This document shows, piece by piece, positions 774 through 17,927 of a stretch of DNA of 21,834 nucleotides (position 1 is the first letter of the stretch; each line of letters starts with the position of its first letter). Both the position numbers and the translations under genes were made by a program. The DNA comes from a virus, in the IMG/VR virus record IMGVR_UViG_3300042731_005770, positions 1 through 21,834 of that record, one strand, 5' to 3'. The notes beneath the pieces were generated by a model. That model made no database searches and was not told where the DNA came from. It saw only the letters and a list, made by a program, of their open reading frames with translations.

Positions 774-789
774 ACGGAGAAAAAATAAA

Positions 790-1110: not shown

Positions 1111-1120
1111 AGGAGAGGCT

Positions 1121-1822: not shown

Positions 1823-1834
1823 TAGGAGTTTTGA

Positions 1835-2617: not shown

Positions 2618-2627
2618 GGAATTATTA

Positions 2628-3407
2628 ATGGCAAGTTATGCAAGTTATAAAAAGGTACATGGTGATCAAATGGTTAACGGGACGTTAACCGATAATGACA
2701 TCAATGCAAATACACTTAATAACTTTGGTGTAAAATGGTTTCATGGCATACCTTGTAGATGCGGAGCAGGGTGTTGCTGTAACTGGACAGTACCATCAGG
2801 TGTATGTAGAATGACCATAGAATTATGGGGTGCTGGAGGCAACGGCGCAGGTGCTTGTTCATGTAATAGATGTCATCACTTCAAAGCTGCCATGGGCGGA
2901 AGTTACAATACAAAAACAATTGGCACAAAAGGTGGATGTACATATAGTGTTTGTGCGGGCGGCGTATACAGATGTCTAAGTCGTAACTGTACAAGTTGTA
3001 ACGGATGCACAACATATGTGAACGGATATAACCTAAGTGGATTCTGTGCTTGCGGCGGCTATAGAGCAGAAGCAAATACTAGTTGGTCAACAGGATGTTT
3101 TTATACAAATGCATATTGTAGATGTCCTACACACAACAACGGTGAAATGTATGTTGTGCCTAACAATCCAGGTTGGTCAACAGCATCTGGATATTGCCAT
3201 TGTCATCCACAGGAAATACATCAAGGTGTTGCTCCTATTATTGGAGGCGTAAGCTCACAAGGCATTAGACAGTGTTGGATTCGTTGCGGTAACTTTAGTG
3301 TACCATACGGAACAGGCGGCCAAAGTGCAATGAATACTTTTTGTGGACGTTGCTGTGGCCAAGGTGGCACAGGTGGACAAGGACTAGTAAGGATAACTTA
3401 TATTTAG
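2628..3407 (+). CDS. Cysteine-rich, glycine-rich fibre-like protein, paralog 2
   Basis: 259 residues with 27 cysteines, colinear with the preceding gene along its whole length. Shared landmarks are the N-terminal YASYKKVHGDQMVNGTLTD, CRCGAGCCCNWTVPSG, IELWGAGGNGAGACSCNRCHH, GVYRCLSRNCTSCNGC, the CHCH pair in the middle, CWIRCG and the end CGRCCGQGGTGGQG. Several cysteines found in the other two are absent here: the one before the K-W at residues 36-37, one in the YVNGYN stretch (YVCGYN or FVCGYG in the others), and the CGCWIAP element, which is CGNFSVP. These losses may come in bonded or metal-sharing sets. The middle (about residues 140-215) is hard to align with the neighbours. The start is ATG 2628 with AAGGA at 2616-2620, overlapping the upstream stop. 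Function unknown; a virion surface protein by context. Confidence 0.85.
   Translation: MASYASYKKVHGDQMVNGTLTDNDINANTLNNFGVKWFHGIPCRCGAGCCCNWTVPSGVCRMTIELWGAGGNGAGACSCNRCHHFKAAMGGSYNTKTIGTKGGCTYSVCAGGVYRCLSRNCTSCNGCTTYVNGYNLSGFCACGGYRAEANTSWSTGCFYTNAYCRCPTHNNGEMYVVPNNPGWSTASGYCHCHPQEIHQGVAPIIGGVSSQGIRQCWIRCGNFSVPYGTGGQSAMNTFCGRCCGQGGTGGQGLVRITYI
2824..2880 (+). repeat. 57-base conserved block, copy 2 of 3
   Basis: Second copy, about 793 bases downstream of the first. By eye it differs from copy 3 (3612-3668) at 3 of 57 positions. It codes for the same W-G-A-G-G ... C-S-C-N-R-C-H core in paralog 2. Confidence 0.8.
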
Positions 3408-3415
3408 GAACAATC

Positions 3416-4225
3416 ATGGCGAATTATAGAAGTTACAAAAAAGTTACAAGTGCAATGGTAGTAGATGGAGCCGTTGATAGCGGGCATATTGCTACTGGTG
3501 TACGTGATAATTGGTGCGTAAAATGGATATACGGCAATCCGTGTAGATGTTCTGCAGGGTGTTGTTGTTTATGGACCGTTCCTTCGTGTGTGCGTAATGC
3601 AACTTTTGAATTATGGGGTGCAGGAGGCAATGGCGCAGGTGCTTGTTCATGTAATAGATGTCAACACTTTTCACCTCCAGGTGGCGGAGCGCATACTAGT
3701 AAACACGTAACAACTAATGCAGGCTGTACATATAGAATGTGTGCGGCAGGCGTGTATAGATGTCTAAGTAGAGAATGTAACGGCTGTAATGGTTGTAGTT
3801 CTTTTGTTTGTGGATACGGATTGTGCGTGTGTGCTTGCGGTGGACAGCGTGGTTGTACTAACAGTTCATGGACAAACAACTGTCACTCTGTGATGCCATA
3901 TTGTGTGCGTCCAGGCTGTAACGGTACAAGTGCAAGTGGAGATTACGCAGGTTATACACACGGTGGTAACTTCCAAGGAGCTTCGGCTTACATGTATCCA
4001 GGTGGTGCATGTCACTGCTGGAAACACATAGGACATTCATCAGGCGCAATAAGATTAAACACAGGCTATGCAGAACAAAACTCAAACTATTGCTGGATTA
4101 GATGCGGATGCTGGATTGCACCCTATGGACAAGGTGGACAATCGGCAACATCAAACTACTGCGGTAGATGTTGTGGACAAGGTGGTACAGGCGGTCCAGG
4201 ACTAGTAAAAGTGACATTCTTTTAA
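3416..4225 (+). CDS. Cysteine-rich, glycine-rich fibre-like protein, paralog 3
   Basis: 269 residues with 32 cysteines, the third paralog. I start it at ATG 3416 (MANYRSYKKVTS), not at the in-frame ATG 3341, because the N-terminus from 3416 lines up with the other two copies and the longer version would run through the end of paralog 2. It shares CRCSAGCCCLWTVPSC, FELWGAGGNGAGACSCNRC, GVYRCLSREC, GACHCWKH, CWIRCGCWIAP and CGRCCGQGGTGGPG. It is about ten residues longer in the central part, where an insertion rich in Gly, His, Tyr and Ala (about residues 175-235) sits. Closer to paralog 1 in Cys pattern and closer to paralog 2 in DNA over the conserved 57-base block. Likely a surface-exposed virion protein; no enzymatic motif. 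Confidence 0.85.
   Translation: MANYRSYKKVTSAMVVDGAVDSGHIATGVRDNWCVKWIYGNPCRCSAGCCCLWTVPSCVRNATFELWGAGGNGAGACSCNRCQHFSPPGGGAHTSKHVTTNAGCTYRMCAAGVYRCLSRECNGCNGCSSFVCGYGLCVCACGGQRGCTNSSWTNNCHSVMPYCVRPGCNGTSASGDYAGYTHGGNFQGASAYMYPGGACHCWKHIGHSSGAIRLNTGYAEQNSNYCWIRCGCWIAPYGQGGQSATSNYCGRCCGQGGTGGPGLVKVTFF
3612..3668 (+). repeat. 57-base conserved block, copy 3 of 3
   Basis: Third copy, 788 bases after copy 2, the same spacing as between the gene starts. It encodes the same core in paralog 3, with His changed to Gln before the last His. Confidence 0.8.
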
Positions 4226-4232
4226 ATAAATA
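4225..4232 (+). promoter_or_regulatory. Possible T4-type late promoter octamer
   Basis: AATAAATA matches the T4 late promoter consensus TATAAATA at 7 of 8 positions and lies in the 28-base gap before the gene at 4254, about 20 bases upstream of its ATG. The same octamer occurs before 5098. AT-rich DNA makes chance matches likely, so this is tentative. Confidence 0.3.
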
Positions 4233-4253
4233 AAATGCAAGGAGAAAATTAAT

Positions 4254-4985
4254 ATGCCAATGGTACAATTTGATTATACATACAACGTTCCAAACGAACT
4301 GTGTGTAGATCATAGTTTTAGTAATAACTTAACTAGGACAGCAACTTATGACGGTCCAGACAAACTTTTCTTCATTGTAAATAATGAAACAGGAAGAGAA
4401 GAACTTGGACCAATTGTTGAAATAGAAAAAAATGATGGACGTCCTGTTCCTGACGGATGTAGATACGTTGAGATTGACTGTATTGATCATCCGGTACTTG
4501 CTCAGTTACGCGGACCAGTAGTAGACGAACAAGAAGAAGATCATACAGGGGAAGCAACACCGAGTACAGGTGCAACTGCTGTAACAGGGTACAAACCTTT
4601 TACATATCAAACACCAGTTCTTCCTTATCAATTTTATGATAGCTTGGCTATTATTTTTAATAGTGACGATACATATACAATCCCAGTAAAAGAACCGAGA
4701 GATACTGTAATGGGACTTGATATTGATAGAGATCTAACGTGGGACGATGTCAGAGCAAAAAGGGATACACTGCTAAAAAACAGTGATTCAGAAATTGTTG
4801 ATGATATGCCACAGGCATTAAAAGATGAGTGGAAAGATTATCGTCAAAGATTGCGTGATTGGCCGAATAGAATGCAGTCAGCAGGTAATTCACCTTTATT
4901 TGCATACTATATGGAACCAATTATGCCGGGCGCAGACCCAGTTACAGGAATGATAGATCCAGATACAACTACAGTCGTAATGTAA
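4254..4985 (+). CDS. Virion-region protein with tail-assembly-chaperone-like C-terminal domain
   Basis: 243 residues, ATG 4254 behind AAGGAG at 4239-4244. The first ~145 residues are not recognised: beta-rich, acidic, with a low-complexity linker near 91-112 (DEQEEDHTGEATPSTG). Residues about 161-206 (LTWDDVRAKRDTLLKNSDSE, then W193KDYRQRLRDWP) carry the W..vR..RD.LL..sD ... W..YR..LRD.P pattern of phage tail fibre assembly / tail assembly chaperone proteins. Such proteins help a fibre fold or trimerise and are usually encoded just downstream of it, and here the gene directly follows the Cys-rich proteins. A folding helper for those proteins is therefore plausible. The gene is followed by a terminator and closes the first structural block. 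The domain call is by pattern only. Confidence 0.7.
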   Translation: MPMVQFDYTYNVPNELCVDHSFSNNLTRTATYDGPDKLFFIVNNETGREELGPIVEIEKNDGRPVPDGCRYVEIDCIDHPVLAQLRGPVVDEQEEDHTGEATPSTGATAVTGYKPFTYQTPVLPYQFYDSLAIIFNSDDTYTIPVKEPRDTVMGLDIDRDLTWDDVRAKRDTLLKNSDSEIVDDMPQALKDEWKDYRQRLRDWPNRMQSAGNSPLFAYYMEPIMPGADPVTGMIDPDTTTVVM

Positions 4986-4989
4986 TTTT

Positions 4990-5014
4990 AAAGCGAGAGC
5001 TTGTCTCTCGCTTT
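4990..5014 (+). terminator. Rho-independent-type terminator hairpin
   Basis: A perfect 10-base stem, AAAGCGAGAG (4990-4999) with CTCTCGCTTT (5005-5014), around the loop CTTGT, starts 5 bases after the stop of the upstream gene. The downstream T-tract is short and broken (CTTTCTT), so termination may be partial. It separates the structural block from the enzyme operon. Confidence 0.75.
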
Positions 5015-5037
5015 CTTACCTTTACAAACATTTAACC

Positions 5038-5045
5038 AATAAATA
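5038..5045 (+). promoter_or_regulatory. Possible T4-type late promoter octamer
   Basis: A second AATAAATA (7 of 8 to TATAAATA), between the terminator and the operon. If real, the operon could be read late as well as from the sigma70-like promoter just downstream. Chance occurrence is possible in this AT-rich gap. Confidence 0.3.
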
Positions 5046-5047
5046 TC

Positions 5048-5076
5048 TTGCATTACTTTTAATATGGTGTTATAAT
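5048..5076 (+). promoter_or_regulatory. Sigma70-like promoter of the enzyme operon
   Basis: A perfect -10 box TATAAT (5071-5076) sits 17 bases from TTGCAT (5048-5053), which shares only TTG with the -35 consensus TTGACA. The spacing is ideal. It lies in the only sizeable non-coding gap of the window, after a terminator and 21 bases before the first gene of the operon. A T4-like middle promoter could also use this -10 box with a MotA-type site; no clear site of that kind is seen. Confidence 0.6.
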
Positions 5077-5097
5077 TTACACTATAAGGAGTTTATT

Positions 5098-6114
5098 TTG
5101 ACAAGATCCACTGCATTTTTTATTAACGGAGGAGCGGGTAGAGTAATCTGTTCTATTCCTGCATTTGAATTATACGAAAAAGAACACCCTGAAGATGATT
5201 TCATTATTGTATGCGAAGGAGGCATGGACTTTTATAAAGGACATCCTACACTTCATAATAGAGCATATGATCATTGGCATAAAGGGCTATTTGAAGAACA
5301 CATTAAACACAGGAATTGTATTACACCCGAGCCTTACAGGATATGGGAATACTACAATCAAAAATGCGATCTTGCACAAGCATTTGATATTGAAATAAAT
5401 GGCAAAGGTGTTCGCAAACTAGATAAGCCTAACATCTATATTAATAAACAAGAAATGGTTACTGCGGCAACTATTGTAGATGAAGTAAAACAAAAAACAG
5501 GAAGAGATAAAGTATTAGTAGTACAACCATTTGGTCGTTCTACAGAAACACATGGCGACTTTATTATCGATCCTACAAGCAGAAGTTTTCAGTTAAACAA
5601 TATTGTAGATGTTATCAACGTATTGAAAAAAGAATATGGTATCATACTAATGAGTGAAATACCTGTTCCATTAGAAGAAGGTGAAAACACAAAGTATCCT
5701 GTAGCACAACCTCAAATTCCAGAACTACGTATTTGGGCAAGTATTATTGATATCGCAGATCATTTCTTAGGTTGTGATAGTTTAGGACAACACATGGTTA
5801 AAGCATTAGAAGGTACAGCAACTATTGTTACAGGAAGTACATATCCAGTAAACATTTCATATCCTGACGATCCTAAGTTTGATATTATAGATGTAGGTGA
5901 AGGCAAAAGAGTATACGCACCTATACGCTTGACAATGGAAGAAGAACAAGACAGACACAATGACGAAGTTATGGAACTAACAGATAAACAAATCAATAAA
6001 ATCTGCGACAGTGTTAGAAAAGTTTTAGGAACAAGTACAAAGAAAACAAACCCTGCCGGAACAAGCAAACTCTTAGCAGGCAGTGCAAATTTAAATCTTG
6101 GAGATAAAAAATAA
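5098..6114 (+). CDS. GT-B glycosyltransferase, heptosyltransferase (GT9)-like
   Basis: 338 residues from a TTG start at 5098, chosen because AAGGAG (5086-5091) lies 6 bases upstream and no ATG occurs near. The N-terminus FFINGGAGRVICSIPAFELY (G11-G12-A-G14) is the Gly-loop start of a GT-B fold, as in ADP-heptose:LPS heptosyltransferases. The C-terminal half carries IADHFLGCDSLGQHMVKAL (residues 219-236), which corresponds to the 'a-D-l-x-v-G-x-D-s-G-x-x-H-l-a-a-A-l' nucleotide-sugar site of family GT9. Neighbouring HldE, HldD and GmhB genes make an ADP-heptose donor likely. The acceptor is unknown. First gene of the operon; its TAA overlaps the next ATG (TAATG). The C-terminal tail after ~312 is low-complexity. 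The family match is by motif and is distant. Confidence 0.72.
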   Translation: MTRSTAFFINGGAGRVICSIPAFELYEKEHPEDDFIIVCEGGMDFYKGHPTLHNRAYDHWHKGLFEEHIKHRNCITPEPYRIWEYYNQKCDLAQAFDIEINGKGVRKLDKPNIYINKQEMVTAATIVDEVKQKTGRDKVLVVQPFGRSTETHGDFIIDPTSRSFQLNNIVDVINVLKKEYGIILMSEIPVPLEEGENTKYPVAQPQIPELRIWASIIDIADHFLGCDSLGQHMVKALEGTATIVTGSTYPVNISYPDDPKFDIIDVGEGKRVYAPIRLTMEEEQDRHNDEVMELTDKQINKICDSVRKVLGTSTKKTNPAGTSKLLAGSANLNLGDKK

Positions 6115-7925
6115 TGGCAACTTGGATAGCAGGCATCACCAGAGGACATAATGCTGGTGTATGTTTGTTAAAAGACGGAGAAATTGTTTTTGCAATTGAG
6201 GAAGAAAGACTTTCTCGACAAAAATATGACGGCGGACCTTACGCAAGTATTGTAAAAATTTTAGATTATACAGATAAACTAGACTACTTAGTAGTAGCAC
6301 ATACACAGCCTTTAGACGCTAGTCCTAATAGAGTAGACTTTACTGGTGATGATGTATATACAGGGCTATGTAGAAAATTAGGTTTAATTGATAATAGTCC
6401 TGGTATAAATTTATATAACCACCCTCAAGTAGTAGATTTAAGTCACATGCATCATAAGTTACATGCGGCATGTGCATTTTATCGCAGTGGATTTGAAACT
6501 GCTACAGGAGTCATTGTAGATGGTGCTGGCACGTTTATTCCTATGAAACATATCTTGAATGACAACGATATGTTATATGAATTAGAAACTATTTTTACAT
6601 GCGAATATCCTGCAAAATTTACAACAAAGTGGAAACACTTAGGTGCTAATGGTCCATTCATTTCAAGTCGTGTACCAGATATGACTAGTGAAAAGTATGA
6701 AGAAGAAGGCACACATATTGCTGTTATGGATGAAATGGCAGGTATTGTCAAAGCATACGAAGCAGTTACACAATACTGTGGCTTTACTGCTATCGAAGCA
6801 GGTAAGACTATGGGCCTGTCGCCTTATGGTAAACCTAACGACAAAATTCCTTCAATCTACGAAAAGCACGGTGACTGGACTAGTGCAAACAGACATCTAA
6901 TAACACCTACATATCCAAATGGTGCAAGGGTAGCAGAAGGAAGATATGAATTTTTAGCAACTTCTGAAGAACTATATAACGATCCTAAACAACTAGCAGA
7001 CTATGAAAATAGGCGAGATCTAGCGTATGCTGTACAAAAAGAAAGCCAAGAACAAGTACAAAAAATCATATTAGACGCTGTTGAAATGACTGGTAATAAG
7101 AATGTTGTACTATCAGGCGGATACGGACTTAACTGTGTAGCAAACTATTTTTATAAAGAAGAACTTAACAAACAAGGAATTAATTTGTACGTTGAGCCTA
7201 TTAGTAGTGATGCAGGTACTGCGATTGGCGCGGCAATGTTTGCATGGCATGAAATAAGCAAAAGCGAAACTGTACTACCATTTGCAGATAGTTTATATTT
7301 AGGTCCATCGTATCAATATGATAAAGCAGAAATTAGTAATACTGCCGACAAATACAATGCCACATTAGAAAAAGTAGAAATGGCAGATGTAGTAAAATTA
7401 ATGATGAATAAAAATATTGTTGCTATGTTCCAAGGACGCTCAGAAGCAGGACCAAGGGCACTTGGTAATAGGAGTTTGATGTATGATCCAACTGATCCAA
7501 ACGGTAAAGATCATGTAAACAAAGTTAAACGCAGAGAATATTTCCGTCCGTTTGCAGGTACAATACTTGCTGAACATGCACATGAATGGTTTGATATGCG
7601 TGGACTAGATGAATCTCCGCATATGATGTACGCTATGAATTGTCAACCTGGCGTAGAAGAAAGGATACCATCAATTATACACGTAGATGGTACATGTAGA
7701 ATACAGACAGTAACAAGAGAACAGAATCCATTATACTATGACTACATTAATGAATTCTATAAACAGACAGGTGTTCCTATTATATTCAACACATCATTTA
7801 ACTTAGGTGGCGAACCACTAGTAGAAACTTTAGATGATGCATTTAGAACTCTTGCAAATAGTGATATTGAATATTTGTATATTGCGGAACACGGAATTTT
7901 AGCAAAGGTAGAAAATGTTAATTAA
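6114..7925 (+). CDS. Carbamoyltransferase, NodU/CmcH/TobZ family
   Basis: 603 residues, the normal length of the family. These enzymes make carbamoyl-AMP from carbamoyl phosphate and ATP in an N-terminal Kae1-like domain and pass the carbamoyl group to a sugar or antibiotic hydroxyl. Motifs in order: GITRGHNAGVCLLKDGEIVF with H12; AIEEERLSRQK; MHHKLHAACAFYRSGF (H113, H114, H117); VDGAG with D136; TMGLSPYGKP; VVLSGGYGLNC; SSDAGTAIGAA; then the C-terminal half with MFQGRSEAGPRALGNRS (to residue 454), FRPFAGTIL and TGVPIIFNTSFN with LGGEPLV. All expected elements are present, so it should be active. It overlaps the glycosyltransferase stop by one base, so the two are probably coupled and a carbamoylated sugar is the likely product. 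Confidence 0.95.
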   Translation: MATWIAGITRGHNAGVCLLKDGEIVFAIEEERLSRQKYDGGPYASIVKILDYTDKLDYLVVAHTQPLDASPNRVDFTGDDVYTGLCRKLGLIDNSPGINLYNHPQVVDLSHMHHKLHAACAFYRSGFETATGVIVDGAGTFIPMKHILNDNDMLYELETIFTCEYPAKFTTKWKHLGANGPFISSRVPDMTSEKYEEEGTHIAVMDEMAGIVKAYEAVTQYCGFTAIEAGKTMGLSPYGKPNDKIPSIYEKHGDWTSANRHLITPTYPNGARVAEGRYEFLATSEELYNDPKQLADYENRRDLAYAVQKESQEQVQKIILDAVEMTGNKNVVLSGGYGLNCVANYFYKEELNKQGINLYVEPISSDAGTAIGAAMFAWHEISKSETVLPFADSLYLGPSYQYDKAEISNTADKYNATLEKVEMADVVKLMMNKNIVAMFQGRSEAGPRALGNRSLMYDPTDPNGKDHVNKVKRREYFRPFAGTILAEHAHEWFDMRGLDESPHMMYAMNCQPGVEERIPSIIHVDGTCRIQTVTREQNPLYYDYINEFYKQTGVPIIFNTSFNLGGEPLVETLDDAFRTLANSDIEYLYIAEHGILAKVENVN

Positions 7926-8562
7926 CGGCAAGGAAGCAAAAGATTTATCAGAATTTGATTTAGCAGAAGATCAAATGATTGTAATAGATGACTTATTCCC
8001 TCAATATGTTATCGAGCATGTTCATGATCAAGTTTTTAATACATACAGTTGGTTTTATGGACATACAAGCAACTATCCAGATGATCCAAGAACTGATGTA
8101 GGTGCAATACCAGATTGGCCGGAAGTCCCTGCACTCAAACAACAAATTTATCCTCCTAACAGTCCTAATGCACACGATGCATCTTGGAATATGATTTATA
8201 ATGCAGTCGCACAAATGATTCCATTTGAATTAGAAATAGGAGAAATATTAGTTAACGGACAGCAATGGATACACAACACAGTTGAACATACTGATTGTCA
8301 GTGCGACAACGGTATTAGTTGGATCTACTATGTGAACAGAGAATGGAAAGAAGAATGGGGCGGAGAAACTGTAATTCAATTAGACGGCGAATGGAAAAAA
8401 GTTTATCCTAAACCAGGACGTGTTTTCTTATTCAAAGGCAAAATTCCACACCACGGAAATCCACCCAACGATTCATACAAAGGACTAAGAGCAACGCTTG
8501 TGTATAAAACCATGCGAGCGCAACCATTACCACCTAAACACCAACAACCTTGGAGAACGTAA
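7915..8562 (+). CDS. 2-oxoglutarate/Fe(II) oxygenase, prolyl-4-hydroxylase-like
   Basis: 215 residues. The double-stranded beta-helix core carries the iron triad H125-x-D127 (VEHTDCQCD), a downstream strand WGGETVIQLDG, VYPKPGRVFLFKG, the distal H180 in IPHHGNPP and R192 in KGLRATLVYK for 2-oxoglutarate binding. This is the layout of the prolyl-4-hydroxylase-type 2OG-Fe(II) oxygenase superfamily, which hydroxylates proteins, sugars or small molecules. A short N-terminal stretch (residues 1-20) precedes the typical MIVIDDLFPQ entry strand. The ATG at 7915 lies inside the end of the carbamoyltransferase gene (11-base overlap), and its own stop overlaps the next start. All key residues are present. 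The substrate is unknown; a peptide or a sugar in the same pathway are both possible. Confidence 0.85.
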   Translation: MLINGKEAKDLSEFDLAEDQMIVIDDLFPQYVIEHVHDQVFNTYSWFYGHTSNYPDDPRTDVGAIPDWPEVPALKQQIYPPNSPNAHDASWNMIYNAVAQMIPFELEIGEILVNGQQWIHNTVEHTDCQCDNGISWIYYVNREWKEEWGGETVIQLDGEWKKVYPKPGRVFLFKGKIPHHGNPPNDSYKGLRATLVYKTMRAQPLPPKHQQPWRT

Positions 8563-9080
8563 TGGAGCATCAAATGTGGAGTGTACCGTTCTTTATTGAT
8601 ACTGTTGATCTTGACAAAATAAAAGTTGAACATAAAGAGACAGAGCGTGTATGGTTAAGCCAAGTTGAATCTAGTTTTGGTAAAGAAAATAATGTTCCTC
8701 CCGAAACTTTTGATTATCTAGTTTCGAGATTTTTAGAAATACTACCACAAGAACTAATAGGAATGAATCCTCGTTTTGGAGAAATATGGCGGAACAAATA
8801 CGAAAAAAACGATTGGCAAGATATACACATACACCCTAAAAGTCAATGGAGTTTTATAATATATGAAACTGTAGAAACTGGTAAAACTGTTTTTATGAAT
8901 CCACTTTACAAATTAATACAAAATCAAATAGGTACAGGACATCCTTGGTTTCCTTTAGATTTTAGACCAGAATGTAAAAAAGGTGATATAGTAATCTTTC
9001 CGAGCATGATTGAACATTTTGTTATGCCAGGCAACGAAGGAACTACACTATCTGGTAACATTTATATGGACTATGAATGA
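8562..9080 (+). CDS. Putative 2OG-Fe(II) oxygenase-like protein (PF13759 type)
   Basis: 172 residues. I place the start at ATG 8562, which overlaps the upstream TAA as TAATG and has GGAG at 8552-8555; an in-frame TTG at 8550 would be the only longer choice. The core reads IHIHPKSQWSFIIYETV (H89, H91), a strand with MNPL, then GDIVIFPSMIEHFVMP with the distal H152, which follows the pattern of the 2OG-FeII_Oxy_5 group, where an H-x-H-P replaces H-x-D. The usual Arg after the distal His is not obvious (TTLSGNIYMD), so 2-oxoglutarate binding may differ or activity may be lost. It ends in ATGA with hldE, a 4-base overlap. Family by motif; substrate unknown. Confidence 0.68.
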   Translation: MEHQMWSVPFFIDTVDLDKIKVEHKETERVWLSQVESSFGKENNVPPETFDYLVSRFLEILPQELIGMNPRFGEIWRNKYEKNDWQDIHIHPKSQWSFIIYETVETGKTVFMNPLYKLIQNQIGTGHPWFPLDFRPECKKGDIVIFPSMIEHFVMPGNEGTTLSGNIYMDYE

Positions 9081-10225
9081 AAGTTTTAGTAATCGGTGAT
9101 ATAATACTAGACAAATACATTTATGGAACTAGTAGAAGAATTAGTCCAGAAGCACCTGTGCCTGTTGTAACTTTTACAGAAGAAAAAACTACTATGGGCG
9201 GCGCGGCTCTTGTTTATGATAACCTAGTAAGTCTAGGAGTAGATGTTACTTTATGCAATACTGAGCAACCAAATAGTGTAAAAACAAGAGTAATTTGTGA
9301 TGGACATTACATAACACGTATAGACGACGATAAGCAAGCTGATGGTGATGCTGTTTTACAAATAGTAAAGAAATCAGATTTTACACCATACGATTATGTC
9401 ATCCTAAGTGATTATGACAAAGGCACATTAAGTAAAGCAGATAAAATTATTAGACATATTAACAAATTTGGATGTAAAGTAATTGTAGATCCAAAAACTG
9501 ATATGTCAAAGTATAAAGATGCTTGGTTAGTAAAACCTAATGAAAAAGAAGAAAAAGAATATTTTAAAAATTGGAAAGGTAACATTATAACTACAAGAGC
9601 AAGCGATAATGTTACTGCTAAAATTGAAGATAATAATTATAATATACCTGTAGAAACTGTTGAAGTTGCAGATGTTACAGGCGCTGGCGATTGTTTCCTA
9701 GCAGGATTTGTATACGGACTCACAAAAGAATATAGCTACAAAAAATGTTTAGAACTTGCTGTAAAAGGATCTACTGAAAGTGTAAAACATGCAGGAACAT
9801 ACATATTAAAAAAAGATGATGTAGAGAATACAGTTGTATTTACTAATGGAGTCTTTGATATACTACATATAGGCCATTTAAAGCTTCTTAGACACGCTAA
9901 AACGCTTGGAAAACGTCTTGTAGTGGGTATTAACAGCGATAGTAGTGTAAAACGCTTAAAAGGCGATTTAAGACCCATAAACAATGAACAAACCCGCAAG
10001 GAAAGCCTCTTAGAGCTTGGTTTTGTAGATGAAGTAATTGTGTTTGAAGAAGATACGCCTCTTGAAACAATTACCAAATTAGAGCCTGATATTATAGTGA
10101 AAGGTGGTGATTATAACTTTGACACAGTCGTCGGAAATCATTTAGCAAAAGTTGTGATTTTCCCGACAGTAGAAGGGCATAGCACTACAAGGATAATAAA
10201 TGAAGATATTAATTACAGGACATAA
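9077..10225 (+). CDS. hldE: HldE-like bifunctional heptose 7-phosphate kinase / heptose 1-phosphate adenylyltransferase
   Basis: 382 residues with both HldE domains in the usual order. The N-terminal PfkB-type kinase shows VIGDIILDKYIYG, the HldE signature RISPEAPVPV (residues 21-30), MGGAA, SDYDKGTLSK, IVDPKTD, KPNEKE and DVTGAGDCFLAG with catalytic D205. The C-terminal nucleotidyltransferase shows VVFTNGVFDILHIGHLKLL with H264-I-G-H267, NSDSSVKRLKGDLRPIN and IVKGGDYN, and ends GHSTTRIINE. It would phosphorylate D-glycero-D-manno-heptose 7-phosphate at C1 and, after GmhB acts, adenylylate the 1-phosphate. It is about 95 residues shorter than the E. coli enzyme (477), all lost from the kinase, which is about 250 residues instead of about 318. 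It overlaps hldD by 26 bases. The domain identification is secure; kinase specificity is inferred. Confidence 0.92.
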   Translation: MKVLVIGDIILDKYIYGTSRRISPEAPVPVVTFTEEKTTMGGAALVYDNLVSLGVDVTLCNTEQPNSVKTRVICDGHYITRIDDDKQADGDAVLQIVKKSDFTPYDYVILSDYDKGTLSKADKIIRHINKFGCKVIVDPKTDMSKYKDAWLVKPNEKEEKEYFKNWKGNIITTRASDNVTAKIEDNNYNIPVETVEVADVTGAGDCFLAGFVYGLTKEYSYKKCLELAVKGSTESVKHAGTYILKKDDVENTVVFTNGVFDILHIGHLKLLRHAKTLGKRLVVGINSDSSVKRLKGDLRPINNEQTRKESLLELGFVDEVIVFEEDTPLETITKLEPDIIVKGGDYNFDTVVGNHLAKVVIFPTVEGHSTTRIINEDINYRT

Positions 10226-11009
10226 AGGGTTTATAGGACAAAATCTCATGTCCTATTTAGAAACAAAATACGAAGTTGCTGGATATGATTTCCATCCAGA
10301 AAACTTGCCTCTTGTTAAAGACTATGATTGGGTAATTCATTTAGGAGCCATTAGTTCAACTACTGAAACAGATGTAGATAAAGTTATATTACATAATTAT
10401 GAATTTTCTAAGTGGTTGTTTAATCAATGTAATCAATATAATGTAAACATGCAATATGCTTCAAGTGCTAGTGTTTACGGAAGCACAACACATTTCAAAG
10501 AAAATGGACCTAGTGATCCTAGAAGTCCATATGCATGGAGCAAGTATTTGTTTGATAGATGGGTGACTGGTATACATCCAAAAATTATATTCCAAGGATT
10601 TAGATATTTCAATGTGTATGGTCCTCATGAAGAACACAAAGAAAATCAAGCAAGCCCTATTACTAAATTTACTAAACAAGCAAAAGAAGAAGGTAAAATT
10701 ACAATTTTTACAGATAGTGAAAACTACAAAAGAGATTTTGTATGTGTTAGTGATATATGTGAAATACATGAAAAAATGTTTGACGTAAAAGAAAAAGGTG
10801 TATATAATATAGGAACAGGTACAGCGATAAGTTTTAAGGATGTAGCAGATTTAATTGCACAAAAGCACAATGCAGAAATTAAATATATACCTATGCCGGA
10901 CAATTTGAAAAATCAATATCAAAAATTTACTTGCGCTAATCTTGAACGTTTAAGTACAGTTGTTAAACACAACTTTAAAACAGTAAAGGAATATATTAAT
11001 GAGCACTAG
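10200..11009 (+). CDS. hldD: HldD-like ADP-L-glycero-D-manno-heptose 6-epimerase
   Basis: 269 residues, an extended short-chain dehydrogenase: ILITGHKGFIGQNL gives the Rossmann G7-x-x-G10-x-x-G13. The HldD-specific stretches are HLGAISSTTETD, YASSASVYG, YAWSKYLFD with catalytic Y111 and K115, FRYFNVYGPHEEHK with K147, ENYKRDFV, YNIGTGTAISF and YIPMPDNLKNQYQ. These follow E. coli HldD closely in order and spacing, so I prefer HldD to a generic UDP-galactose or GDP-mannose epimerase. It would convert ADP-D-glycero- to ADP-L-glycero-D-manno-heptose with bound NADP. It is about 40 residues shorter than the bacterial enzyme. The ATG at 10200 lies inside the end of hldE, and its TAG lies inside the next gene. 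Confidence 0.92.
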   Translation: MKILITGHKGFIGQNLMSYLETKYEVAGYDFHPENLPLVKDYDWVIHLGAISSTTETDVDKVILHNYEFSKWLFNQCNQYNVNMQYASSASVYGSTTHFKENGPSDPRSPYAWSKYLFDRWVTGIHPKIIFQGFRYFNVYGPHEEHKENQASPITKFTKQAKEEGKITIFTDSENYKRDFVCVSDICEIHEKMFDVKEKGVYNIGTGTAISFKDVADLIAQKHNAEIKYIPMPDNLKNQYQKFTCANLERLSTVVKHNFKTVKEYINEH

Positions 11010-11517
11010 TCTTTTTATTGTTGATGATTTTTTACCTAAGCCTGATATGGTTAGAGAACAGGTTGTAAACTTTGAATTTAATACAACTGGAGAATTTCCA
11101 GGAGTAAGATCTTTTGCGGCAGATGACGATTATCAGATGTATTGCAAAACAAGATTTGAAGATATAATGGGCGTAAAAATTACAGAATTTTTGATGGATA
11201 GTTTTTGCTGGCAGTTGTGCTACGAAGGTGCTGAAACTTGGATTCATAAAGATCCTAGCATGTGGGCAGGTGTTTTGTATCTTAATCCAGATGCTCCTAT
11301 AGAAGCAGGCACAGGATTATATAAAGAAGTAAAAGAACAGGAATTTGAATTAGTAGATGCTATAGGAAATATATACAATAGACTTATATTGTATAGAGGA
11401 GATATACTTCACAGGAGTCTGTTATCAGGATTTGGTAATTGTAAACGCACAGGAAGACTAACACAAGTGTTCTTTTTCAATGTAAAAGACCAACCCGCTG
11501 GAGGATGGGAAGGATGA
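10999..11517 (+). CDS. 2OG-Fe(II) oxygenase-like protein (DUF6445-like)
   Basis: 172 residues. The core shows WIHKDPSMWAGVLYLNPDAP with H83-x-D85 as the first two iron ligands, then AGTGLYKEV, YNRLILYRGDILHRSL with the distal H138, and R153 in TGRLTQVFFF as a 2-oxoglutarate anchor. This combination (WxHxDxSxWAGVLYLN, LYxGDxxHRSL, GRLTQVFFF) is that of the DUF6445-type proteins, which are seen as short oxygenase-like proteins in marine bacteria and phages. It is a different family from the oxygenases at 7915 and 8562. The ATG at 10999 has AAAGGA at 10985-10990 and overlaps hldD by 11 bases; its TGA forms ATGA with the next gene. Activity likely from intact residues; substrate not known. Confidence 0.75.
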   Translation: MSTSLFIVDDFLPKPDMVREQVVNFEFNTTGEFPGVRSFAADDDYQMYCKTRFEDIMGVKITEFLMDSFCWQLCYEGAETWIHKDPSMWAGVLYLNPDAPIEAGTGLYKEVKEQEFELVDAIGNIYNRLILYRGDILHRSLLSGFGNCKRTGRLTQVFFFNVKDQPAGGWEG

Positions 11518-12143
11518 TTGCAAATGGAAAAACATTAGGATTATGGCCTACTTGGGTTTATGAAGCACAAGTTGAAAAACACGATGAAATATATAAAGAG
11601 TTTTTGCCTTATTTAGATGACGAATCTAACTTTGACGAACCCTGGATATATGGTAGATGTAAAAGTAGTATTAGAAATAATAAGAATGATACATTTCCTT
11701 GGCAAACTTGGTTTGAAAATATAAGACCTTATACACAACAGCATTTTGATGATATGATGCCTGTGGTTCCTTTTAATATATCTTGTGAAGAATTCTGGGT
11801 TAATATTTACAAACAACATGACTATCAAGAAATACACGATCATGCATTTCCTGGTAGAACTATTAGTGCTGTTTATATCTTAGAATTACCCGATGGAGAA
11901 GACATAGGCGGAGAATTAGTACTAGATTGTCCTAACTACAACATAGTCCAATCATCCGGTACTGAAAGAATTTTTAATCAATGGCAATATCAACGTTTTA
12001 TTCCAGAACTACAACCAGGCAAATTAATACTATTTCCTAGTTGGATACCACATTATGTACTGCCTAATAAAACAGATAAACGTAGGGCAACTATTGCCGC
12101 AAACTTTAAAATAGAGATAGCAGATGACAAAACTCAAGGGTGA
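11514..12143 (+). CDS. 2OG-Fe(II) oxygenase (PF13759 type)
   Basis: 209 residues. I start at ATG 11514, not at the in-frame ATG 11505, because 11514 forms the ATGA overlap with the upstream stop and has GGAGG (11500-11504) at 9 bases; 11505 would have no spacing from that site. The core is EEFWVNIYKQHDYQEIHDHAF (written here in part) with H108 and H110, ISAVYILELP, GGELVLDCPN, then PGKLILFPSWIPHYVLP with the distal H180 and R190/R191. This is the 2OG-FeII_Oxy_5 pattern, with the 'N-x-Y ... H-x-H-x-x-P' replacing H-x-D. It is a distant relative of the protein at 8562 but keeps the Arg that one lacks. It overlaps the cupin gene by 20 bases. Substrate unknown. Confidence 0.8.
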   Translation: MIANGKTLGLWPTWVYEAQVEKHDEIYKEFLPYLDDESNFDEPWIYGRCKSSIRNNKNDTFPWQTWFENIRPYTQQHFDDMMPVVPFNISCEEFWVNIYKQHDYQEIHDHAFPGRTISAVYILELPDGEDIGGELVLDCPNYNIVQSSGTERIFNQWQYQRFIPELQPGKLILFPSWIPHYVLPNKTDKRRATIAANFKIEIADDKTQG

Positions 12144-12486
12144 AGTAGAAAAAGGATGGGGTAGCGAAACTATATTTGCTACTAATGATTTGTATTGTGG
12201 CAAATTATTAAACTTCCATACAGGTGCAAAATTCAGTATGCATCTGCACAAAGACAAAGATGAAACTTGGTATGTGTTAAGTGGTAAATTTGTAGTAAAA
12301 ACTATTGATACAAAAACTGCTGATGTAAATGCTACTTCTTTGAAAAAAGGAGATACATGGCATAATCCACCTATGCTACCACACCAATTGCTGTGTTTAG
12401 AAGAAGGTACTATTGTAGAAGTAAGCACACCTGATAGTGTGGAAGATAATTATAGGGTAGAAAAAGGAGATAGTCAAAATGTCTAA
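12124..12486 (+). CDS. Single-domain cupin
   Basis: 120 residues forming one cupin barrel. Motif 1 is complete: G34, then five residues, H40-x-H42, four residues, E47, six residues, G54 (AKFSMHLHKDKDETWYVLSG). Motif 2 is GDTWHNPPMLPHQLLC with G76 and H87. These residues bind a metal. The closest general type is the small cupin related to the C-terminal domain of type II mannose-6-phosphate isomerases and sugar-phosphate isomerases, which suits a nucleotide-sugar operon. A sedoheptulose isomerase role in place of GmhA is only speculation; a sugar isomerase, epimerase or oxygenase are equally open. The start ATG 12124 lies 20 bases inside the preceding gene. The last eight bases overlap the next gene. 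Confidence 0.82.
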   Translation: MTKLKGEVEKGWGSETIFATNDLYCGKLLNFHTGAKFSMHLHKDKDETWYVLSGKFVVKTIDTKTADVNATSLKKGDTWHNPPMLPHQLLCLEEGTIVEVSTPDSVEDNYRVEKGDSQNV

Positions 12487-13300
12487 AACACTTTTTATTG
12501 GATGCAGTCATACTATGGGCTATAGTGGTTTTATAGTTGCTGAAGATAAAAAACCTAATGTATGGGGCGAAAATAATTACGCAGAAATTTATAGTAAAGA
12601 ATTTCATAAAGATGTAATTATTATGGCTAGTGCAGGTGCAGGTAACAGTGCCTTTCCAAGATTTCTAGCACATGCATTCAAGACATATAATGATATAGAT
12701 GAAGTATTCATACAAAGCACTTATTGGGGGAGATTTCCTATAGTTATAAATCCTGATTTAGATGAAAAAGATATTTTTCCTTTAGATTTCTTTTTGCAAA
12801 AAGATAACTGTGATGAAAATATAGATAGATGGAGTATAAGTTTAAGCATAGATAACAAATACTTAGAGCATTATATTAAACCACAACCTCAAGACTGGGA
12901 AATTTTTAAATATAACAAAGATACAATACCTTGGATTTCAGAACCAGACACAAGGCGTAGTTCACACATGTACATGCAAATGTGGCATTATCAAAATACA
13001 CATCTTATACAACAGGACTATTTTAAGGATATGGCATTGTGCGATATGCTATGTCATTATAATAATGTTCCTTTGTACGTATGGAATATAAATGATAGAT
13101 GTTATATTCCTAAGGAATCAACTAATTTTTATACAGAATTGCGTAATACAAAATTTTGCAACCAAGATGCAATTAGTTTTTTAGATAAAAAATACAATAA
13201 AAATCATAAGAATGACACTCTCGACGGCGAACATTACTCAAAACACGTTCACGAGAAGATTGCTACAGACTATATATCTTATGTAAAGGATATACAATGA
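12479..13300 (+). CDS. SGNH/GDSL-hydrolase-like protein
   Basis: 273 residues. The N-terminus TLFIGCSHTMGYS gives the block I nucleophile S10, ASAGAGNSAFPRFL gives the Gly-Asn of block III (N56), and DTLDGEHYS near the C-terminus gives the D249-x-x-H252 block V pair. A separate Gly for block II is not clear. SGNH proteins of this kind act as esterases or acyl transferases and deacetylate or acylate sugars. No signal peptide is seen, so it works in the cytoplasm. The central part (residues ~90-200) is aromatic-rich and unlike anything I recognise. Start ATG 12479 has AAGGAG at 12464-12469. It ends in ATGA with the next gene. In a sugar-modifying operon, an O-acyl transferase or esterase is a reasonable guess. 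Confidence 0.7.
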   Translation: MSKTLFIGCSHTMGYSGFIVAEDKKPNVWGENNYAEIYSKEFHKDVIIMASAGAGNSAFPRFLAHAFKTYNDIDEVFIQSTYWGRFPIVINPDLDEKDIFPLDFFLQKDNCDENIDRWSISLSIDNKYLEHYIKPQPQDWEIFKYNKDTIPWISEPDTRRSSHMYMQMWHYQNTHLIQQDYFKDMALCDMLCHYNNVPLYVWNINDRCYIPKESTNFYTELRNTKFCNQDAISFLDKKYNKNHKNDTLDGEHYSKHVHEKIATDYISYVKDIQ

Positions 13301-13875
13301 AAGACGACTACAACGGAATAGAAGAATATCCGCTTGCTTACGAAAAAGAATATTGTGAAGAAATAATCAAACACTTCGAAGTAATGGCCAGAAATGCAGT
13401 AACATACAAACAAGACAAACTTGAAGTGAATCAAGATGAACGTATTGTATTTGATTGGGCTCATACACAAAATCAATATCACTATGATTTCAAATTATGT
13501 GATTATTTCTACAAAAGATTACATGAAGTTTATACAACAGCCTATATGGAAAAATATCAAATGTTAAAGAACAGTGAGCAACATAGTCCTAAAGGCATGA
13601 GTATACAAAAATCAAAACCACATCAAGGATATCACGCTTGGCATGCTGAAGCCGCTGATATTGGTTCCTGTTCAAGAGTAATGAATTACATGTTGTATCT
13701 AAATGATGTAGAAGAAGGCGGCGAAACAGAATTCCTATATCAAGGAGTAAAACTTAAACCAGAAACAGGTAAGCTAGTCATCTTTCCAACAAGTTATATG
13801 TATCCTCACAGAGGCAATCCTATCTATAAAGGTGTTAAGTATATCATAACAGGTTGGTATACATATGATAGATAA
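13297..13875 (+). CDS. 2OG-Fe(II) oxygenase, P4H-like with an H-x-E iron motif
   Basis: 192 residues. The core is GYHAWHAEAAD with H116-A-E118 in place of the usual H-x-D, MLYLNDVEEGGETEF, LKPETGKLVIFPTSY, the distal H171 in YPHRGNP and K181 (GVKYIITGWYTYD) where Arg or Lys binds 2-oxoglutarate. This is the prolyl-4-hydroxylase-like superfamily; the H-x-E form with GYHxWHxE is, in my recollection, common in marine phage oxygenases. It is the fifth oxygenase of the operon and is related to that at 7915 in overall pattern but not obviously a duplicate. It overlaps the SGNH gene by ATGA and the GmhB gene by 11 bases. Likely active; substrate unknown. Confidence 0.85.
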   Translation: MKDDYNGIEEYPLAYEKEYCEEIIKHFEVMARNAVTYKQDKLEVNQDERIVFDWAHTQNQYHYDFKLCDYFYKRLHEVYTTAYMEKYQMLKNSEQHSPKGMSIQKSKPHQGYHAWHAEAADIGSCSRVMNYMLYLNDVEEGGETEFLYQGVKLKPETGKLVIFPTSYMYPHRGNPIYKGVKYIITGWYTYDR

Positions 13876-14461
13876 GTATAAGGTTGCAAATGCGGCTCCT
13901 GCAATTCCTACAAAATGTGTGATAGGATTAGACAGAGACGGAGTAATTAACAAAGACATCGGCACATATGTGACTTCACCTAGTCAGTTTGAAGCAATTG
14001 ACGGTAGCCTTGAAGCAATAGCACACATGAGAAGATTAGGGCATCGTATTGTTATCCTAACTAATCAAGGAGGTATAGCAAAAGGCCTAATGACTAACGA
14101 ACATGTAGAAAACGTACATGAACACATGTTAGACCTATTCGGGCAAGCAGGTTGTCCGAGTATTGAAGGAATCTACTACAGCGAAAGCAGTCAGAAAAAC
14201 GATATGTATGCAAAACCAAATGCAGGTATGTTTAAAAGATGTGCAAAAGAAATTCCTGGAGTAAAGTGGTCACAAGGATTCTTTGTTGGTGATAAAATGA
14301 GTGATCTACGTGCCGCTATTAAAGTAGGAGCAAGGCCTGTCTTAGTTAGAACCGGATATGGACTTGAAACAGAAAAACAGCTAAATAAGTATACATATAG
14401 GGACATTCGAAAGAAAACCTATATATTTGACGATTTAGCTGATTTTGCAAGCCAGCTTTAA
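13865..14461 (+). CDS. gmhB: GmhB-like D-glycero-D-manno-heptose 1,7-bisphosphate 7-phosphatase (HAD)
   Basis: 198 residues, a HAD phosphatase with the GmhB / histidinol-phosphate phosphatase plan: VIGLDRDGVINKD (D23 nucleophile, D25), SLEAIAHMRRLGHRIVILTN with T66 in TNQGGIAKG, GIYYSES, KPNAGM with K117, and FFVGDKMSDLRAA with D143 and D147, then VLVRTGYG. It would remove the 7-phosphate between the two HldE steps. Odd point: the zinc-binding Cys/His loop between IYY and KP in most GmhB proteins is replaced here by a short loop with no Cys or His (SESSQKNDMYA). Last gene of the operon; 14 bases separate it from the next structural gene, with no terminator. Specificity for heptose rather than histidinol phosphate rests on the neighbours. 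Confidence 0.85.
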   Translation: MIDKYKVANAAPAIPTKCVIGLDRDGVINKDIGTYVTSPSQFEAIDGSLEAIAHMRRLGHRIVILTNQGGIAKGLMTNEHVENVHEHMLDLFGQAGCPSIEGIYYSESSQKNDMYAKPNAGMFKRCAKEIPGVKWSQGFFVGDKMSDLRAAIKVGARPVLVRTGYGLETEKQLNKYTYRDIRKKTYIFDDLADFASQL

Positions 14462-14475
14462 TAGGAGAAAAATAT

Positions 14476-14808
14476 ATGCCATACGCAGTTAAAAAACCGC
14501 ATCCTACAAGGGAAAACGTAATGCTTTATCATACATGGGATCCTGATGGTGACGGTTACGAAGAAATTAGAAAATTCCCAGATGAAGCAAAAGCAAATGA
14601 ATTTGCGGCAAATCATGCAGGTGCAATAGTAGTAGAAATTGGGTATGAAATTGATCAAACAGATGAAATGATTGCTGATAGATATGCTCAATCTATTGAT
14701 CCTACAAAATCACAAGGCAGTGTCACACTTTCAACAAACACTGATCAAGATCATAAGTTCGAGCCAGGTGTAATTACAGCATTTACCGCACACGGTATTT
14801 TAGGTTAA
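14476..14808 (+). CDS. Small unknown protein at the start of the second structural block
   Basis: 110 residues, ATG 14476 with AGGAG at 14463-14467. The first ~60 residues look like a small alpha/beta domain (VMLYHTWDPDGDGYEEIRKF, then an alanine-rich helix DEAKANEFAANHAGA and a strand IVVEIGYEI). The DPDGDG stretch is acidic and could bind calcium, but it is too short to claim. The C-terminal part is low in complexity and polar. No signal peptide, membrane helix or known family. It lies between the last heptose gene and a fibre gene, 9 bases before the latter, so a small virion or assembly protein is the best guess. Confidence 0.7.
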   Translation: MPYAVKKPHPTRENVMLYHTWDPDGDGYEEIRKFPDEAKANEFAANHAGAIVVEIGYEIDQTDEMIADRYAQSIDPTKSQGSVTLSTNTDQDHKFEPGVITAFTAHGILG

Positions 14809-14817
14809 GGATAACCT

Positions 14818-16332
14818 ATGGCATTTCCAGTAGCTCCCGTATTCGATAGAATTAGACTAGTACCTCGTCCAACTGACTTTTTGGACAGGAATACAGGTGC
14901 TAGTGGTGAGCTGTTCTACGAAAAAGAAACCAAAACACTTCGTGTATACAACGGATTGCAACGTGGCGGGTTTGAAGTTGTAAGCGAAGAACGTTTAAGA
15001 ATTAACACAGCAAACTTAGAAGTTGCAACTGTAAAATATTTGACTTACGTAGGTAACGATGGTATTTCAAACAAATATTTTTTCAATACTGACGAAACTG
15101 CCTTTGCTCCTGAATTAACATTTGTTGTAGGATATACATATAGGTTTGATCAAACTCATTATACAAATTTATTTTATCCTAATCAACAAGGAGGAACATT
15201 AAATCCTCATCCAATTAATTTTAGTGCTGATCAAAATAATACTGTAGCTTATACAGATAACGTAATTTATTTGTTAGACGATTCAGAAGTAGACAGTAAT
15301 ACATATTACAACAAATTCACAAGTGCAACAACTAGAGCAATCCAAATTACAATTACCACACAAACACCTACAACATTGTATTATCATTGTACAAACCATG
15401 TAGGAATGGGAAATGTAATAACCGTTGGTATGCCTGGTTCAGGAAGCGGTGCCGGAGGCAGTGCAAGTATTACATCTAGTGACACAGCACCAGCAGAACC
15501 TAGTGCAGGTGCTCTTTGGTATAATAGTGCAACAGGTTATTTGTATGTTTATGTAGATGACGGAGATAGTCAACAATGGGTGCAACCTGTAGCAGGGAAT
15601 GTGTTTAGTGGAGTGTATGGAGACTTAGTAGGTATACCTACTTTTGCAACAGTTGCTAGTACTGGCGAATGGAATGACATCCAAAACAAACCGACTATAC
15701 CTGCAACACTTACTGATTTAGGTATTTCAGACGGAACTGCAAACCAGGTTTTAACCACAGATGGTGCAGGCAATTTTACATTTCAAGATGGTGGAGGCGG
15801 TGGCCAAGCATATGATCAATCATTAAACACCACTGACGATGTGACGTTTGATGAAATTACTGCAACAACAAGTGTATCTGCACCTAGTGTAATTACAAAT
15901 GGTGTAGGCGTTACAAACTTTACAAGTTCAACAAGTTTAACATTGTCAGCAACAGACGGCGTGTTCCTTTCTGGAATAGCAAGATCAAGCGAAATAATAA
16001 ACACACTGACTGGTGCAACGTCAACAGTAGATCATAGTTTGAATTCAGGCAGTGTATGGAATCACACAAGTATTGCCGCTAACTTTACTGCTAACTTTAC
16101 AAATGTACCTACAACAAACGACAGAACTATTTCTGTAGCATTGATATTAAATCAAGGTGCATCACCATTTCTTCCTAATGCCGTTCAAATCAACGGAGCC
16201 GCTCAAACTATAAACTGGGAAGATGCATCTGCACCGACACCTAATGCAAACCAAACAGATGTTGTTGTCTTTACACTTGTACGTACAGGCGGTTCATGGA
16301 GCGTGTTAGGGAGTTTAACAACATATGGCTAA
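14818..16332 (+). CDS. Tail-fibre-like protein with a cupredoxin-like domain
   Basis: 504 residues, ATG 14818 after AAGGA overlapping the upstream stop. Residues 1-50 (RLVPRPTDFLDRNTGASGEL, then TLRVYNG) are an N-terminal fibre segment known from T4-like cyanophages. Residues ~95-205 look like a cupredoxin: GYTYRFDQ, NPHPINFS with H131, and TTLYYHCTNHVGMGN with C191, H194 and M197, the four ligands of a type-1 copper site in the right order (H ... C-x2-H-x2-M). A Gly/Ser linker follows, then an APAEPSAGALWYNS repeat-type element (~228), a shaft of low-complexity Thr/Ser/Ala, and a beta-rich C-terminus ending WSVLGSLTTYG. No signal peptide. It overlaps the protease gene by 8 bases. A structural role is likely; copper binding is untested. 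Confidence 0.85.
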   Translation: MAFPVAPVFDRIRLVPRPTDFLDRNTGASGELFYEKETKTLRVYNGLQRGGFEVVSEERLRINTANLEVATVKYLTYVGNDGISNKYFFNTDETAFAPELTFVVGYTYRFDQTHYTNLFYPNQQGGTLNPHPINFSADQNNTVAYTDNVIYLLDDSEVDSNTYYNKFTSATTRAIQITITTQTPTTLYYHCTNHVGMGNVITVGMPGSGSGAGGSASITSSDTAPAEPSAGALWYNSATGYLYVYVDDGDSQQWVQPVAGNVFSGVYGDLVGIPTFATVASTGEWNDIQNKPTIPATLTDLGISDGTANQVLTTDGAGNFTFQDGGGGGQAYDQSLNTTDDVTFDEITATTSVSAPSVITNGVGVTNFTSSTSLTLSATDGVFLSGIARSSEIINTLTGATSTVDHSLNSGSVWNHTSIAANFTANFTNVPTTNDRTISVALILNQGASPFLPNAVQINGAAQTINWEDASAPTPNANQTDVVVFTLVRTGGSWSVLGSLTTYG

Positions 16333-17926: not shown

Positions 17927-17927
17927 C

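Follow-up and report, generated by a model that had tools for sequence, protein, structure and literature searches.

The 21,834-nt window analysed here is an IMG/VR virus fragment (IMGVR_UViG_3300042731_005770; coordinates are window positions unless a contig or locus is named). In its tail region, the 'host recognition' part of what is probably a jumbo-like marine phage of the T4 superfamily, the window carries a cassette with relatives of the heptose enzymes HldE, HldD and GmhB, a GT9-fold protein and a small cupin. We consider it reasonably likely that this cassette makes ADP-glycero-manno-heptose. Three observations are new: the isomerase GmhA, which supplies heptose 7-phosphate in bacteria, is absent from every searched phage record with the cassette, one uncharacterised cupin is present in all testable loci, and the phage gene labelled 'phosphoheptose isomerase' resembles a mini HAD phosphatase. 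Many marine phages carry ADP-heptose genes, yet these are usually filed as 'lipopolysaccharide (LPS) genes' or as possible stuffer DNA.

The sequence-only reading had assigned three of the genes to HldE, HldD and GmhB, and both the best family matches and the retained catalytic motifs support this assignment, at scores below the curated equivalog cut-offs. The best NCBIfam match of the HldE-like protein is PRK11316 (E=1.4e-80), the HldD-like protein matches TIGR02197 (E=4.9e-71) and the GmhB-like protein PRK08942 (E=1.1e-40, 139 bits). Closest among the solved structures are Burkholderia HldA for the HldE-like protein, E. coli HldD (1eq2, E=1.3e-47) for the HldD-like protein and heptose bisphosphatases (PDB 4pnh, E=1.2e-23) for the GmhB-like protein. 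According to alignments, the phage enzymes are 37–40% identical to HldE, HldD and GmhB of E. coli K-12, with HldE at 37%.

The HldE-like protein, from here mini-HldE, joins kinase and nucleotidyltransferase domains in one chain of 382 aa and is ~95 residues shorter than the 477 aa enzyme of E. coli; the kinase has lost about 27 residues in its first half, and more stretches are missing further on. Compared with E. coli K-12 HldE it keeps the motifs SRISPEAPVPVV, GGAA, TGAGD, HxGH, KRLKGD and KGGDY. The GAGD of the kinase and the HxGH of the nucleotidyltransferase are thus both present, and GAGD is kept in 203/203 HldE relatives. In the HldD-like protein, S88/S89, Y111, K115 and K147 (Ser/Tyr-x3-Lys plus the HK lysine of the active site) are invariant with E. 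coli HldD, while the aligned cofactor-binding segment is shortened. The HAD catalytic residues of the GmhB-like protein (DxD, T, K, D) are 97–100% conserved in 106 phage sequences.

These genes are conserved as a unit. Scans with HldE, HldD and GmhB alignments each gave at least 80 loci. A kinase plus nucleotidyltransferase was found in 218 of 237 IMG/VR loci (200 as one fused gene) and HldD in 222. All 49 loci with long flanks contain HldE, HldD and the cupin, and 36 of them GmhB as well; several phages carry HldE, HldD and the cupin only, and these three constitute the strict core. Related cassettes exist in isolate cyanophages, including P-SSM2, S-SSM7 and Sf-FS3, in which kinase and nucleotidyltransferase are separate genes; the fused form and the order fused HldE, HldD, cupin, GmhB are typical of non-cyanophage lineages. 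The recurrence of related cassettes with the same genes in ~200 IMG/VR loci as well as in isolate cyanophages shows that the arrangement is not due to chance. Sullivan and colleagues noted that T4-GC304, 305, 307 and 308 (kinase, nucleotidyltransferase, cupin and epimerase) co-occur and may be functionally linked (PMC3037559). A heptose kinase, a 'phosphoheptose isomerase' and an epimerase were listed in the announcement of SynMITS9220M01 (PMC7378029), and rfaE is mentioned in a pelagimyophage survey (PMC7029224).

The absence of GmhA from the window, noted in the sequence-only reading, was confirmed by PF13580 (SIS_2), which gave 0 matches. That reading had also proposed a search in the rest of the phage genome. 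A second contig of the same phage (G001, 25.6 kb), whose positions 1-14242 equal window positions 7593-21834 at 99.99%, adds 11.4 kb further downstream, likewise without GmhA. More broadly, PF13580 matched none of 71 cassette-bearing records searched whole (the window plus 20 plus 50 larger cassette contigs), among them 8 complete cyanophage genomes, and the SIS domain PF01380 matched none of 20 phage records. The search was sensitive enough to recover the genuine SIS-type GmhA of Caulobacter phage Cr30 and of the huge phage LR756504, both of which are outside the 35 cupin records. The lack of GmhA characterises the cassette family as a whole and is not a peculiarity of the window.

The cupin is tightly linked to the cassette. 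There are 90 distinct loci with a fused HldE and 6 kb or more of downstream sequence: in 88 the cupin lies within that stretch, at most 60 bp from HldD in 67 of the 88, and in the remaining two it is found in another part of the contig. All 31 marine T4-like phage records with the kinase/nucleotidyltransferase, among the matches listed, are also in the cupin list. Across 151 sequences, the metal ligands HxH...E...H (H40, H42, E47, H87) of the cupin and several of its Lys/Arg residues are 97–100% conserved. Many metal cupins match its predicted fold (mean predicted local distance difference test score, pLDDT, of 94), among them D-lyxose isomerase in complex with fructose or mannose and CapF-type sugar-nucleotide cupins. 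A profile search against solved structures returned oxalate decarboxylases and other generic cupins only. As a side observation, phrog_7851, annotated as 'cysteine dioxygenase', is this cassette cupin.

The open reading frame listing shows 12 overlapping genes at 5098-14461, all on the plus strand. This bears out the claim of one overlapping operon in a tail-fibre setting, with the four enzyme genes at 5098-6114, 9077-10225, 10200-11009 and 13865-14461 (all +) and tail proteins encoded by the flanking genes. The features of the region are:

1835-2617, 2628-3407 and 3416-4225 (+): three tandem Cys/His/Gly-rich paralogues (phrog_4205)
4254-4985 (+): tail fibre assembly chaperone (PF16778 Phage_tail_APC, E=1.3e-9; phrog_4912, tail fiber assembly)
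5098-6114 (+): GT9-fold protein, candidate heptosyltransferase (T4-GC302, phrog_8954; Foldseek, hhalign)
6114-7925 (+): NodU-like carbamoyltransferase (T4-GC303; PF16861, E=2.3e-59; PF02543; phrog_1601)
7915-8562 and 8550-9080 (+): two 2-oxoglutarate (2OG)-Fe(II) oxygenase-like genes (PF13640, PF13759)
9077-10225 (+): mini-HldE, kinase and adenylyltransferase fusion, 382 aa (PRK11316; alignment with E. coli HldE)
10200-11009 (+): HldD-like ADP-heptose 6-epimerase, 269 aa (TIGR02197; PDB 1eq2; alignment)
10999-11517 (+): DUF6445 protein (family match)
11505-12143 (+): 2OG-Fe(II) oxygenase-like protein (family match)
12124-12486 (+): small metal-type cupin (T4-GC307, phrog_7851; PF07883, PF01050)
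12479-13300 (+): possible SGNH-like protein (no family match in profile searches)
13297-13875 (+): 2OG-Fe(II) oxygenase (profile searches)
13865-14461 (+): GmhB-like HAD phosphatase without the zinc-binding loop (PRK08942; PDB 4pnh)

The three paralogues upstream (~260 aa each, with 27–33 Cys, 8–10 His and ~40 Gly apiece) belong to a family of unknown function and are likely tail-fibre tip or adhesin proteins of unusual Cys content. Together with the tail chaperone they precede the GT9-like gene, and tail proteins and a subtilase follow the cassette. The latter is a subtilisin-like protease at 16325-17926 within the tail-fibre region (PF00082, E=2.9e-30). Two further observations concern NUDIX genes: a second cupin gene adjoins that of a NUDIX hydrolase downstream of the tail genes (G001 15688-16475, minus strand; contig G008 62063-62853, minus strand), and a NUDIX-like gene stands directly 5′ of HldE in several relatives (loci L006, L081 and L108).

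In the pathway that we propose, mini-HldE would phosphorylate D-glycero-D-manno-heptose 7-phosphate at C1, the zinc-less GmhB would take off the 7-phosphate, the C-terminal domain of HldE would adenylylate the dephosphorylated heptose and HldD would epimerise the resulting ADP-heptose. The GT9-fold protein, with the neighbouring carbamoyltransferase and 2OG oxygenases, would then probably decorate tail adhesins, tail fibres or a host surface glycan.

A GT9-like transferase had been suggested for the gene at 5098, and the predicted GT9/GT-B fold supports this. For the AlphaFold2 model of this protein (mean pLDDT 80), GT9 proteins make up 30 of the 31 top Foldseek matches, led by 3tov (E=3.6e-9) and followed by TibC, WaaF and WaaC, and hhalign aligned its family to WaaC/WaaF/WaaU at E=0.0012. 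The only conserved Cys residues in the alignment (A5) are C90 and C226, and the four-Cys iron finger of BAHT/TibC was not found there. The catalytic Asp of WaaC, WaaF and TibC lies in the N-lobe and is Asp110 in TibC (PMC4358343).

Several results weigh against the synthesis and transfer of ADP-heptose by the cassette. An arginine (R15) stands at the position of the GT9 catalytic Asp in 45/45 relatives of the 5098 protein, a Pfam search of this protein gave no match and hence no GT9 call, and just 42/237 IMG/VR loci carry a GT9-like gene; therefore, another transferase must act in many of the phages. Mini-HldE scores 271 bits against a PRK11316 equivalog cut-off of 521, which is why it is called HldE-like, the HldD-like protein 239.5 bits against 274.6 for TIGR02197 and the GmhB-like protein 139 bits against 178. 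Finally, the zinc-binding Cys/His loop of GmhB is gone in 105 of 106 non-redundant phage sequences, the window included. Scores under the cut-offs in all three enzymes, an HldE ~95 residues short and a GmhB without its zinc loop would fit enzymes that have drifted to another sugar, such as a C6 sugar or an aminoheptose, with no ADP-heptose made. We regard such a drift as improbable, for kinase, nucleotidyltransferase, phosphatase and epimerase each separately indicate this one pathway, and by its fold the transferase matches enzymes that use ADP-heptose.

The destination of the sugar is suggested by gene placement. Tail genes flank the cassette in the window and in four cyanophage isolates (P-SSM2, Sf-FS3, S-SSM7 and S-CAM3), and a gene-by-gene reading of five loci showed the core trio directly adjoining a very long predicted protein (~2,000-2,600 aa). 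In the window the GT9-fold and carbamoyltransferase genes lie between the adhesin-like paralogues with the chaperone and the heptose genes; similar small tail-region genes are followed by GT9-like and carbamoyltransferase genes in S-SSM7 and Sf-FS3. For these three phages the placement favours modification of tail adhesins. In S-T4, P-TIM68, S-SM2 and Sf-CH8 the heptose genes are found among several other glycosyltransferases, which favours a host glycan as the target there. Published readings of such marine-phage genes likewise favour LPS (PMC3037559, PMC7029224), and the product might modify a host surface glycan, as in O-antigen conversion or superinfection exclusion, rather than the virion. 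We lean somewhat away from this view, since the cassette of the window, like that of several other phages, is embedded in a tail-fibre module, with adhesin-like genes and a chaperone adjoining and no other glycosyltransferase nearby.

The argument that the host has heptose-poor LPS, so that a phage making its own ADP-heptose would add something new, presupposed a marine picocyanobacterium. Such a host was not supported. In a 78.6-kb relative, whose cassette shares ~80% nucleotide identity with that of the window, the major capsid protein is 65–70% identical to those of jumbo T4-superfamily phages (hosts Sinorhizobium, Vibrio, Pseudomonas and Erwinia), and the portal is ~50% identical to those of jumbo T4-superfamily phages of heterotrophic proteobacteria. 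No psbA/psbD (Photo_RC) was found in the window or in contigs G001, G004 and G008, all of which are fragments. We therefore rejected cyanophage (Kyanoviridae) identity on capsid, portal and absent psbA, as far as these fragments reach, and a cyanobacterial host is unlikely. Because the lineage looks heterotroph-infecting, the novelty argument fails for this phage; moreover, heptose genes in marine phages have already been published. A 155-kb cousin carries KdsB-like (CMP-KDO synthetase-like), TctA transporter, SHMT and peptide deformylase genes.

Heptose 7-phosphate would come from either a host GmhA or the phage cupin. GmhA is common in heterotrophic Gram-negative hosts, and the window phage appears to belong to a lineage that infects heterotrophs. 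A host enzyme could therefore supply the substrate with the phage enzymes strengthening or diverting the steps that follow and the cupin acting elsewhere, for example on the finished sugar nucleotide or sugar, as the CapF-type cupins among its fold matches would allow. We give this explanation slightly less than an even chance. It has to account for the same gene set in cyanophages, while cyanobacterial LPS is without heptose (PMC4515613), and in S. elongatus, the one cyanobacterial control genome, there was no TIGR00441 GmhA match at E<=0.001, yet PF13580 does match.

Alternatively, the cupin could be a metal-dependent aldose-ketose isomerase that replaces GmhA without being homologous to it, making the phage pathway complete from a pentose-phosphate intermediate. 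GmhA converts sedoheptulose 7-phosphate to D-glycero-D-manno-heptose 7-phosphate, the C7 homologue of the conversion of fructose 6-phosphate to mannose 6-phosphate, and phosphomannose isomerases include cupins; the replacement is chemically sensible for this reason. Its constant presence in testable loci, its proximity to HldD, the missing SIS domains, the exclusion of the GmhA-bearing Cr30 and LR756504 from the cupin list, the conserved metal ligands and the D-lyxose isomerase fold match all argue in its favour. Weak phosphomannose-isomerase hints point the same way: the window cupin scores 26.3 bits with PF01050 (cut-off 23.6), a match shared by only 6/57 relatives. In the 155-kb cousin (IMGVR_UViG_3300020463_000007) an RfaE-II-like nucleotidyltransferase is fused to a phosphomannose-isomerase-type cupin (L027:18717-19478, minus strand), to which the cassette cupin aligns, and in a Parcubacteria metagenome-assembled genome (MAG) the cupin stands beside a heptose kinase and nucleotidyltransferase with no SIS match, although this MAG is small and possibly incomplete. 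On the other hand, the cupin fold is promiscuous, with oxalate decarboxylase and quercetinase scoring equal or better, linkage to the cassette cannot name the reaction step, and cupin relatives in Marinoscillum and Thermoleophilia have no cassette genes detected nearby. All in all, we consider an isomerase role for the cupin unlikely. If true, the cupin would represent a new family of isomerases, and the virus would encode its own way of leading pentose phosphate intermediates into surface sugars, perhaps including those of the virion. Still less do we expect the pathway to be complete in every part, with the cupin replacing GmhA, the zinc-less GmhB or a mini HAD protein dephosphorylating and the Asp-less GT9-fold enzyme heptosylating tail adhesins. 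The missing first step is narrowed to one candidate protein of 120 residues. No direct report on phage ADP-heptose or on a cupin sedoheptulose isomerase was found in the literature.

Another candidate for the first step, the 'phosphoheptose isomerase' T4-GC306, was rejected because it has HAD-type motifs (DxDGT and TAR...DDKG), no SIS match and polynucleotide kinase as its second PHROG match. These proteins (phrog_1238, ~105-116 aa) match no Pfam model, and from their motifs they are probably mini HAD phosphatases and probably the GmhB stand-in of cyanophages. T4-GC306 occurs in the 11 loci from phage isolates or single cells and in 0/237 IMG/VR loci, where GmhB is common; strict mutual exclusion of the two does not hold, as AG-345-O18 carries both. 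The isomerase label is widely copied across cyanophage genomes (L001:15113-15457 and equivalents).

Some loci labelled as bacterial deserve a remark. The Neomarinimicrobiota MAG PBPT01 includes contigs, probably binned phage, that carry a phage-type heptose cassette (fused HldE, HldD, cupin, GmhB, carbamoyltransferase); its loci L267 and L268 have identical match coordinates on two contigs. Locus L269 (PBTY01000054), labelled as a Rickettsiales MAG, resembles L270 of Marinoscillum pacificum in gene content; given this near-match and a genome of 6.6 Mb, the label looks wrong.

Compared with the bacterial ADP-L-glycero-beta-D-manno-heptose pathway (GmhA, HldE, GmhB, HldD, WaaC/F), the order of steps and the catalytic motifs are the same in the phage, which differs by having no GmhA, a trimmed kinase, a GmhB without the zinc loop, an extra invariant cupin and a GT9 fold without the catalytic Asp. 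TibC-type BAHT protein heptosyltransferases share the GT9-like catalytic fold with the window protein, and their use of ADP-heptose and a protein acceptor would suit a tail-fibre target (PMC4358343); unlike TibC, the window protein has neither the four-Cys iron finger nor the extra N-terminal barrel, and Arg is aligned to the catalytic base. Caulobacter phage Cr30, T4-sized and annotated with a heptose 7-phosphate kinase and epimerase as in the window cassette, differs in its genuine SIS-type GmhA, its place outside the cupin list and its absence among the HldE matches listed.

The nearest known system is the heptose/LPS cassette of T4-like cyanophages (P-SSM2, P-SSM5, S-SSM7, S-CAM1/3, Sf-FS3; T4-GC302-308), which, like that of the window, lies in the tail-fibre region and lacks GmhA. 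Common to both are the GT9-like protein, carbamoyltransferase, heptose kinase, nucleotidyltransferase, cupin and HldD-like epimerase, with HldE and HldD ~35-45% identical. Whereas the cyanophages have a two-gene kinase/nucleotidyltransferase and the mini HAD T4-GC306, the window has a fused gene and the zinc-less GmhB.

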